A stretch of DNA of 64,000 nucleotides. Source: Rhizobiaceae bacterium. GTDB taxonomy: Bacteria; Pseudomonadota; Alphaproteobacteria; Rhizobiales; Rhizobiaceae. Below are positions 32,936 to 37,081 of the stretch, one piece after another (the first letter of the stretch is position 1; the number at the start of each line of letters is the position of its first letter). The notes under the pieces are model-generated. The model had not been told where the DNA came from, searched no databases, and saw only the letters and a list, made by a program, of their open reading frames with translations. The translations under genes and the position numbers were made by a program. The DNA is taken from positions 1 to 64,000 of the forward strand of contig JAHBYU010000004.1 in the NCBI GenBank assembly GCA_019635775.1, in the 5' to 3' direction.

Positions 32936-34392
32936 CTACGCAGCAAGAAGCTTCTTCACCTCAAGCATATCGTCCAGAAAGCGCGCGCGTTCCGCTTCCT
33001 TGTCGTCGGGATCACGGATGCGCAGGATGAAGGAAGGGTGGATGGTCAGGAAAACGCGCAGTCCATCGTCGCGCTCGACCAATTGCCCGCGCATCTTTGT
33101 GATCGGGACCGCTTTTCCAAGCAGGGACAATGCCGCCGTCGCGCCGAGGGCCACCACGAGCGCCGGTTTCGCCAGCGCAAGTTCCTTGTCCAGCCACCAG
33201 CGGCAAGCCTGAACCTCGCCGGCATTGGGCCTGGAATGGATGCGTCGCTTGCCGCGCGGCTCGAACTTGAAGTGTTTGACCGCGTTTGTGACGTAGGTCT
33301 TTTGCCGGTCGATACCTGCGTCGCCCAGCACTGCATCGAAGACTTTGCCGGCAGGGCCGACAAAGGGCCTGCCGGCCAAATCCTCCTGATCGCCGGGCTG
33401 CTCGCCGACAAACACCACGTCCGGCTTGTCCGGGCCTTCGCCAAAGACGGTTTGCGTGGCATCACGCCAGAGGGGGCACCGGCGGCACGCTTTTGCCGCA
33501 TCGCGCAGTTCCGCGATCGAATTTGCCTCTGCGCCATCATTTTCGGAAGCCGGCGTCGCGTCGGCAGGCCAATGGCGCGCCTGAACTTTTGCATGATGCG
33601 GAGCGGGCACTGTCGGCATCCTGGCGAGCATCTCTTTCGCGGCGTCATCGGCGCCGGCTACAAGTCGGGGAATGAGCGGAGCCTCGGGCAGGTTCCGCCA
33701 GTATTTCTTCGGCATCTCCTTCTGCATGGCCTTCATCTTGAGGCGCGCCGGGTTGAAGATGTTCTGGTAGTAGGTGAGCCAAAGCTCCTCGACCGCATCA
33801 TCTCCCGGCGCGTCGCGCTTTTCCGCGCCGGGGCTGAAGGTCACCTCCGTCATGTCCCAATGTGCGCAGAGGAAGGGGGTCAGGATCGACCAGGACATGC
33901 CAGTGAAGCGGCGCACGAAAAAGGGTGCGTTGCGCTCGACGATAAAGTGCTCGGGTTCGAACCATGCAACGTAGCGCTGGTCGTCGCCGACCATCCGGAA
34001 CCGCACGAAGGCGCGCATCTTGTGGATGTCACGGCGAACGGATTTCTCCATCGCCTCGAAGCGTCTGACATCAGGATCGGATGCGATCTTCAAGAGCGCG
34101 GGCTCCGAGCGCATGCGCCAGAGCATGCGGTAAAGCAGCGCGAAGCGTTCCGGATCGCTGTGGCAGGCAACCGTTTCGGCGCGTTCGACGAATTCGCGAG
34201 AGACCCTCAGACAACTGTCCGGGACAGGTTCAGGCAGCCCCTCGTTCGGCTCGTCACCGACCCGCCAGGCTACGTCTTCCGGTCGAATTTGCGCGAGCGC
34301 CAGTCGCCGGGCGGCGTCGCGCCACGCGGCGAAATCGGTCTCGCCGGCAAGATGCACCGTGTGCGCAGAGAGGTCGAGGAGCGCCGTCTGCA

Positions 34393-34393
<1 letters not shown>
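32936..34393 (-). CDS. udgX: DUF4130-UdgX fusion, uracil-DNA binding/glycosylase protein
   Basis: A 485-residue fusion. Residues about 85-245 match DUF4130 (TIGR03915-like, function unknown). Residues about 295-485 are a UdgX-type uracil-DNA glycosylase domain. Visible are Cys303/Cys306 of the iron-sulfur cluster (KACRRCPLW), motif GEQPGDQED at 330-338, and the UdgX-specific KRRIH at 382-386 followed by HPS at 452-454. In mycobacterial UdgX the His of KRRIH covalently traps the uracil-excised site; His386 is the equivalent here. ATG 34393 overlaps the stop of the radical SAM gene by one base, so the two proteins are made together. Confidence 0.92.
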
Positions 34394-35628
<1,235 letters not shown>

Positions 35629-35630
35629 GT

Positions 35631-35645
35631 GTTCATGATATGTTC
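35631..35645 (-). promoter_or_regulatory. LexA (SOS) box GTTC-N7-GTTC
   Basis: On the plus strand GTTC-ATGATAT-GTTC is an exact match to the alphaproteobacterial LexA consensus. It sits two bases upstream of the radical SAM start codon and covers the candidate -10 element TATCAT (minus strand). LexA binding here would block transcription of the radical SAM-udgX pair until DNA damage. Confidence 0.8.
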
Positions 35646-35692
35646 TGAACGCAAAAAAGCAAATAACATTTGATGCGTCTTGCCGGCAGGCC

Positions 35693-37081
35693 TCAGACCT
35701 CGTGCAGGTAGAGATGGTAGTCGAGTTCGCTGACCGTTCGGGCCACGCGCAGATATTCCGCATACTTTATGGCGGTGAAAGTGCGGTGCATATCCCCGCC
35801 CAAAGCCTGTTTGAGGAAGGCGGAACCTTTCGCCAGTTCGATCGCCGAGCGCCAGTCTGGTGGCATGGTCGACGGACGGTCCTGCGCAGTTTCGTAACCG
35901 TTTCCGGTAACTTCGGGACCGGGATCCAGTTTTTCGTCCAGGCCCTTCGCGATTCCAGCAAGTACGGTTGCCGCGACAAGATAGGGATTGGCGTCGACGC
36001 CGGACGGACGATGCTCGATGCGGCGGGCGGCGATGCCACCTGCCGGTACGCGCAGGGCGACGGAGCGATTGTTGACGCCCCATGTCGGCGCGATGGGTGC
36101 ATAGGACTGAGATACGAAGCGTCGCCACGAATTGGCGTGCGGCGCAAAGACCAGCATCGATTCCGCCATGGTTGCCGAAAGCCCGCCGAGCGCATTGAGC
36201 AGGGAAGGCGACCATGTGCCTTCGCGCTCCTCGGCGAAGACGTTGCTGCCGTTGGCACCCTGCATCGAGACATGCAGATGCATGCCCGAGCCGGCATATT
36301 TCTCGATCGGCTTGGCCATGAAGCAGGCGGTCACGCCATGCCGGCGCGCCTGGGCGCGCACAAGCCGCTTCAGCATCAGGAGGTCGTCGGCGGCCTGAAG
36401 GATGTTCTTGCGGTAGTTGAGGGTCAGTTCGTACTGGCCGGGCGCGTATTCCGAGATGACGGTCTCGGCCGGGATTTCCTGTGCCGCAGCGGCGGCGTAA
36501 ATGTCCGAAAACAGCGGCTCCATCCCGTGCAGGTGGTCGACGGAATAGACCTCGGTCTTGCCGCTGCTTCGGCCGTCGAGCACGGCTTTGGCCGGCTGCA
36601 CACGGCCCTCGGCATCGCGTTCGTTGGCCAGCAGGAAGAATTCCAGTTCGAACGCGCCGGCGGGGAACAGTCCCTTCTCGGCGAAGGCGGCGACCTGGCG
36701 CGCCAGGGCATGGCGCGGGTCAGATGTCATCGGCGAGCCGTCGAGCGCATACATGGACAGCAGCACCTGACCACGTGGCGGAACCGTGCCATGCAGCGGC
36801 TTCAGTGTGCCGGCGATCGGCCATGCGCGCAGGTCACCGTCGCCGGAATCCCAGATCAAGCCGGTTTCGTGGACGTCCTCGCCGGTGATGTCGAGGCCGA
36901 GGATCGAAATCGGCAGGTGCCGGCCATGCTCATAGAGGCCCATCAGCTCGTGACGGCGGATGATCTTGCCTCGGCCAACGCCATTGGCGTCGGTCAGCAC
37001 GATATCGAACGCCTCTATGTCGGGGTGGGCACTCAGAAACGCCCTTGCTTCATCGACGGTCGAACCTGATGGAGATGTCAT
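35693..37081 (-). CDS. Glutamine synthetase family protein (gamma-glutamylpolyamine synthetase-like)
   Basis: A protein of about 462 residues with the GS fold. It has an N-terminal beta-grasp part (DIVLTDANGVGRGK) and a catalytic part with ELEFFLLAN, EYAPGQYELTLNYR, GSGMHLHVS and NNRSVALRVP. Residues coordinating the two metals and glutamate are in these segments. The sequence is nearer PuuA-type enzymes than GlnA, so it probably ligates glutamate to an amine. ATG 37081 has AGGA at a proper distance; ATG 37111, ten codons earlier, overlaps the aminotransferase stop and is an alternative. It forms an operon with that aminotransferase. Confidence 0.85.
   Translation of the reverse strand: MTSPSGSTVDEARAFLSAHPDIEAFDIVLTDANGVGRGKIIRRHELMGLYEHGRHLPISILGLDITGEDVHETGLIWDSGDGDLRAWPIAGTLKPLHGTVPPRGQVLLSMYALDGSPMTSDPRHALARQVAAFAEKGLFPAGAFELEFFLLANERDAEGRVQPAKAVLDGRSSGKTEVYSVDHLHGMEPLFSDIYAAAAAQEIPAETVISEYAPGQYELTLNYRKNILQAADDLLMLKRLVRAQARRHGVTACFMAKPIEKYAGSGMHLHVSMQGANGSNVFAEEREGTWSPSLLNALGGLSATMAESMLVFAPHANSWRRFVSQSYAPIAPTWGVNNRSVALRVPAGGIAARRIEHRPSGVDANPYLVAATVLAGIAKGLDEKLDPGPEVTGNGYETAQDRPSTMPPDWRSAIELAKGSAFLKQALGGDMHRTFTAIKYAEYLRVARTVSELDYHLYLHEV

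Follow-up and report, generated by a model that had tools for sequence, protein, structure and literature searches.

In the window, the 64,000-nucleotide stretch of Rhizobiaceae DNA analyzed here, the region just upstream of a radical SAM gene is predicted to be the promoter-operator of a two-gene SOS operon, with the radical SAM gene (TIGR03916) first and a DUF4130-UdgX fusion second, which LexA would repress and which would be transcribed into a leaderless mRNA. We give this reading a probability of around 0.8. Comparison with related loci gives good support to a LexA operator lying over a leaderless promoter, and the unit is very probably a leaderless repair operon. We infer that RNA polymerase would use a sigma-70-type promoter, with its -10 hexamer at -12 to -7 of the ATG and its -35 element about 17 bp further upstream, and would start at the A of the ATG or about one base from it. 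LexA bound to GAAC-N7-GAAC would cover the -10 and the start region, keeping the operon off, and RecA-triggered cleavage of LexA would free the promoter and induce the operon in the SOS response. Ribosomes would then begin on the 5'-terminal AUG, and UdgX would be translated through coupling at the overlap of the two genes. The features are listed in Table 1.

Table 1. Features of the putative operon and its control region in the window
Feature	Position	Strand	Basis or remark
Radical SAM protein TIGR03916 (rSAM_link_UDG), 411 aa	34393..35628	-	Profile match
TGATG, radical SAM stop and UdgX start overlapping by one base	34391..34395	-	Read from sequence
DUF4130 (TIGR03915)-UdgX (TIGR03914) fusion, 485 aa	32936..34393	-	Profile matches; GEQPG and KRRIH
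Predicted LexA operator GAACATATCATGAAC (GAAC-N7-GAAC)	35631..35645	-	2 nt from start codon; conserved in relatives
-10 hexamer TATCAT	35635..35640	-	Inside LexA box spacer, at -12..-7 of ATG
-35 element TTGCTT	35657..35662	-	16-bp spacer in window vs 17-bp for family columns
Start codon ATG, with transcription predicted to begin at its A (35628)	35626..35628	-	Predicted from -10 register

The two genes and the putative promoter-operator

The first gene matches TIGR03916, described as a putative DNA modification/repair radical SAM protein and which we take to be the same family as COG4277, with an E-value of 3.4e-169 and 563.3 bits (curated cut-off 343.5). Its helix-hairpin-helix matches are weak, just below the Pfam cut-off, and no sequence relative was found in the PDB at E 0.001. 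The second protein scores 322.1 bits against TIGR03914 (cut-off 189.95), and in the PDB it matches 6ail best (uracil DNA glycosylase X; E 2.8e-50), an entry presumably from Mycobacterium smegmatis. Motif A of UdgX (GEQPG) and the KRRIH loop are both present in the alignment of the window protein with 6ail. Motif B deviates: the window has HPSFILR where HPS(S/A)(L/V)(L/V)R is stated (PMC10359453), in the same frame but with letters outside the motif at two positions. We thus classify the protein as UdgX-type by the family model and the loop, without claiming that every motif fits. The TGATG overlap suggests translational coupling of UdgX to the radical SAM gene. This gene order is kept in relatives: a UdgX-type partner lies downstream in 153 of the 154 having at least 400 nt there (the miss is L146), and its extrapolated start falls within -30 to 60 nt of the radical SAM stop in 138 of these 153. 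Where the downstream sequence reaches 1700 nt or more (76 loci), the loop reads KRRIH in 42 and KRRLH, KRRVH or KRRMH in 15, and 19 have none of these.

Two bases (AC) separate the radical SAM ATG (35628-35626) from an exact LexA direct repeat GAAC-N7-GAAC, which reads GAACATATCATGAAC on the - strand and GTTCATGATATGTTC on the + strand (35631-35645). This agrees with the first-pass annotation, which had placed an exact GTTC-N7-GTTC two bases before the start. The box fits the alphaproteobacterial LexA operator GTTC-N7-GTTC, listed as the Caulobacter entry in a published table (PMC9578287). The order on the - strand is TTGCTT-N16-TATCAT, with TATCAT within the box, followed by AC and the ATG. 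The same annotation had proposed that this TTGCTT/TATCAT promoter starts the mRNA at the ATG. The register of the proposal is kept across relatives (see below), but a consensus promoter scan at its strict threshold found no promoter at the radical SAM start; TATCAT matches its textbook hexamer at 5 of 6 positions and TTGCTT at only 3 of 6, and the window's own -35 is weak.

Conservation of box, spacing and promoter register

The radical SAM gene is patchy, being found in 13 of 41 relative genomes and, over the cut-off, in 65 of 297 genomes of the order; 10 further genomes of the order matched only below the cut-off and were dropped. We assembled 156 loci: 13 from the 41 relative genomes (one being the window's own), 29 from the order survey, 34 by place, and 80 named loci that are the best of at least 570 matches. 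Close relatives of this radical SAM protein are over-represented in the set, and the fractions given below are not class-wide frequencies. One locus (L080) was without a usable start codon, and the other 155 were reduced to 134 at less than 75% identity over the 60 nt upstream. Start codons were chosen by rule, an ATG near the aligned first residue being preferred.

Within these 60 nt, GAACN7GAAC is present in 119 of the 134 non-redundant relatives. When the spacer is set to 3-6 or 8-13 instead, the two words are found in no more than 1 of the 134, and the median for all 256 four-letter words in the N7 arrangement is 0. The next-ranked words, AACA (69) and ACAT (22), mostly reflect this box shifted by one or two bases. 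Of the 15 box-less loci, 7 carry the inverted form in the 100 nt upstream, 4 of these in the 60 nt nearest the start; near-misses are seen in some of the rest. On this comparison we take the LexA site in the window to be real and conserved. The motif on its own, within the window alone, is not significant: there are 4 exact matches vs 2.07 expected, at least 4 occur in 14 of 100 shuffles, and the other three matches all lie inside ORFs (429, 472 and 780 aa). The whole genome has 204 matches vs 111 for the reversed control. The counts in the window would suit a chance match without LexA function, an explanation that we reject and consider negligible in view of the 119 conserved boxes: the significance of the box comes from its position and its conservation, not from the number of motifs.

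Some loci carry other arrangements of the site. L055, L061 and L063, from genomes of 6-7 Mb, have the identical LexA box inverted and 96-99 nt upstream, with none at the start codon. In L050, L093 and L104 an inverted box ends 1 nt before the ATG, and in L050 its spacer places TACCTT at -12 to -7.

The loci were classed by the distance from the end of the box to the start codon: 1-3 nt (class A), 4-7 nt (class B), 8-20 nt (E1 and E2) and more than 20 nt (class F). These account for 61, 13, 37 and 8 of the 134 loci, respectively, and in 52 of class A the distance is exactly 2 nt. Class E1 comprises 12 loci, mostly of Aurantimonadaceae, with 13-15 nt between box and ATG; it was hand-picked after viewing the sequences, and L049, L062, L072 and L098 share this spacing yet were kept in E2. 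We call A and E1 leaderless-type loci (n=73) and E2 and F distant-box loci (n=33). Counting against our reading, 48 of the 134 loci lack both a close box (class A or B) and the E1 layout.

Class A spreads over Rhodobacterales, Caulobacterales, Sphingomonadales and Hyphomicrobiales. Pairwise identity within it is 26% at -60 to -19 of the box, but reaches 41% across the -35 hexamer and 65% across the spacer. Since the flanking DNA is near random identity, the fixed spacing is no relic of recent ancestry. On a quick FastTree tree of 133 proteins, in which 33 of 130 inner branches are weak, the leaderless-type vs distant-box label requires at least 6 changes. The informative columns of class A are T-T/G-G-C-C at -18 to -14 of the box and A-T-A-T/A-C/A-A-T in the spacer, and in the column profile the two hexamers are exactly 17 bp apart.

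The spacer has the form TAnnnT in 44 of 61 class A loci vs 5 of 45 boxes at least 8 nt away (Fisher p 2e-10; class B, with 8 of 13, was excluded from this test), and TA stands at -12 of the start in 52 of the 61. The TATNAT-like spacer could reflect a sequence preference of LexA only, with no -10 element, and A/T-rich spacers do occur at other boxes of the same genome: ssb has AAAATAG, and imuA has ATAACAT, which fits TAnnnT although the box ends 23 nt before the start. We find this explanation very improbable, given the counts above for close and distant boxes, and because TAnnnT is found in 0 of the 12 E1 spacers, where TAT instead stands at -12 of the ATG, outside the box, in 10 of 12. At -35 of the start codon, T[TGC]G was seen in only 28 of the 52 loci with spacing 2, in 11 of the 12 in E1 and also in 6 of the 33 with distant boxes; it occurs together with the -12 element in 28 of 52, 10 of 12 and 0 of 33, respectively. 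In E1, then, the distance from the predicted promoter to the ATG is unchanged, although the operator sits about 12 bp further upstream. A promoter that stays fixed relative to the ATG where the box has moved appears to be tied to the start codon, as the operator is not, which is what a leaderless mRNA would require. This layout, with the promoter unmoved, would amount to a natural experiment separating the repressor site from the promoter.

It is tempting to extend this to the Alphaproteobacteria as a whole, with a promoter locked to the start codon and kept with the leaderless mRNA, and an operator free to shift by about one helical turn or even to flip. We put this forward tentatively, as less likely than not. 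If true, the response to DNA damage would include an operon in which leaderless translation has been selected, for instance because under damage both the crosslinking UdgX and its radical SAM partner could then be produced through Shine-Dalgarno-independent initiation.

Translation start and a possible leader

The first-pass annotation had also reported that no ribosome binding site precedes the gene, and we too saw no Shine-Dalgarno sequence before the radical SAM ATG of the window; class A relatives are likewise at the level of shuffles, with a duplex energy of -4.5 kcal/mol or lower in 8 of 61 loci vs 16% in shuffles. Shine-Dalgarno four-letter words were found in 10 of the 73 leaderless-type loci vs 24 of the 33 distant-box loci, a comparison that excluded class B (2 of 13) and the class without a box (5 of 15). 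The start codon is ATG in 72 of 73 and 23 of 33, respectively, GTG and TTG starts being commoner among the distant-box loci. Duplex energies in E2 are moderately above shuffles (16 of 25 vs 44%), the shuffled expectation being itself high. The choice of start is constrained in 34 of the 61 class A loci, which have no other in-frame start before the upstream stop. In the window, in-frame start codons are present further upstream, the radical SAM ORF opening at 35763, and hence the choice of start there rests on homology.

These data must be weighed against a different arrangement, in which the operon is under LexA control and an upstream start or read-through gives its mRNA a leader. Translation would then do without a Shine-Dalgarno sequence, and the spacing of the box would be incidental. 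A glutamine-synthetase-like gene on the same strand ends 64 nt upstream of the radical SAM gene, and no terminator was found between the two, which makes a leader possible through read-through into the operon. For the tight repression design proposed in the first-pass annotation, such read-through is a possible complication. Initiation without a Shine-Dalgarno site is also common in Caulobacter, where 75.4% of genes are reported to lack one and 375 mRNAs to be leaderless (PMC4117421). That most genes there lack the site anyway counts against our reading. Furthermore, the distant-box loci, 33 of the 134, include the 24 with a Shine-Dalgarno word. A leader would nevertheless leave unexplained why the -35 and -10 elements keep a constant distance to the ATG in divergent lineages, even where the box lies some 12 bp further upstream, and we regard it as unlikely. 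A leaderless mRNA would account for this distance. If it is confirmed, the mRNA start of an SOS operon would be predicted to the base in many species, which would help the annotation of start codons.

Related systems and other LexA boxes

The annotation had tied the radical SAM-UdgX pair to the SOS response. The link holds but had already been published: a study of Bacteroidetes describes the COG1573-COG4277 pair as SOS-regulated and cites earlier reports from Verrucomicrobia and Alphaproteobacteria (PMC8565304). That operon has the same kind of gene pair under LexA as the window; unlike here, the available text describes no leaderless promoter or fixed operator-to-ATG geometry, and the word "leaderless" appears in it 0 times. 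A connection in SOS contexts of DUF4130 with SplB-like proteins and with uracil glycosylases has also been described (PMC3765255). UdgX of Mycobacterium smegmatis shares the GEQPG and KRRIH motifs with the window protein, which differs in being fused to DUF4130 and encoded in an operon with a radical SAM gene; the physiological role of UdgX is described as largely unknown (PMC10359453). If our reading holds, UdgX and its uncharacterised radical SAM partner would be placed among the damage-induced genes of these bacteria.

Repressed leaderless promoters are known too. In the acuR-acuI-dddL operon of Rhodobacter sphaeroides, another alphaproteobacterial leaderless operon whose repressor operator overlaps the promoter, the 5' end was mapped at the AUG, with TATTAT and TTGATT centred 10 and 35 bp upstream; its regulation relies on the TetR-family repressor AcuR and acrylate, unlike the LexA and DNA damage predicted here (PMC3017554). 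The lexA gene of Mycobacterium tuberculosis is an SOS gene whose transcription and translation starts coincide, as we predict for the window, but phylum, SOS box and gene all differ (PMC2897130, PMC3062782). In Deinococcus-Thermus, a -10 motif adjoins ORFs, and DdrO sites may overlap it or be near it. As predicted for the window, a repressor of the damage response would there bind at or close to the -10 element of leaderless genes, albeit in a DdrO rather than a LexA system (PMC12340547). Hence, SOS control of the pair and repressed leaderless promoters (acuR, mycobacterial lexA) were known before, and our literature searches found no report of the fixed LexA-promoter-ATG geometry.

The genome of the window has one TIGR00498 match, confirmed by hmmscan, and this lexA gene has its own box at -66. 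Boxes also precede imuA (-38; so named from a match that falls short of the NCBIfam cut-off), ssb (-117) and comM (-108, inverted). A box lies 0-4 nt before an ATG at 14 places in this genome (1 in the control), and the A/T-rich form of such a close box is found 47 times in 26 genomes vs 5 in the reversed control. We read 29 of these 47 places (L222-L250): the radical SAM gene accounts for 2 (L248, L250) and longer ORFs for 8 (L225, L227, L231, L233, L236, L238, L243, L244), and 19 of the 29 ATGs open ORFs of at most 41 codons. A general class of leaderless LexA genes is not claimed.

Other genes of the same genome have boxes at various distances. A VOC-family-like gene (L213:241-594, - strand, contig C12; a reading, with no NCBIfam match) has a GAACN7GAAC box at -42, and at L236, in a genome of the same genus, an upstream ATG in frame follows 4 nt after the end of the box. 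On contig C1, a RecD2-like helicase gene (L020:1573-2697, + strand) has an inverted LexA-type box at -72, and a divergent ORF has its ATG 1 nt from the end of this same box. On the same contig, a DNA polymerase IV gene of uncertain start (L202:172-1494, - strand) has an inverted box 6 nt before a possible ATG.
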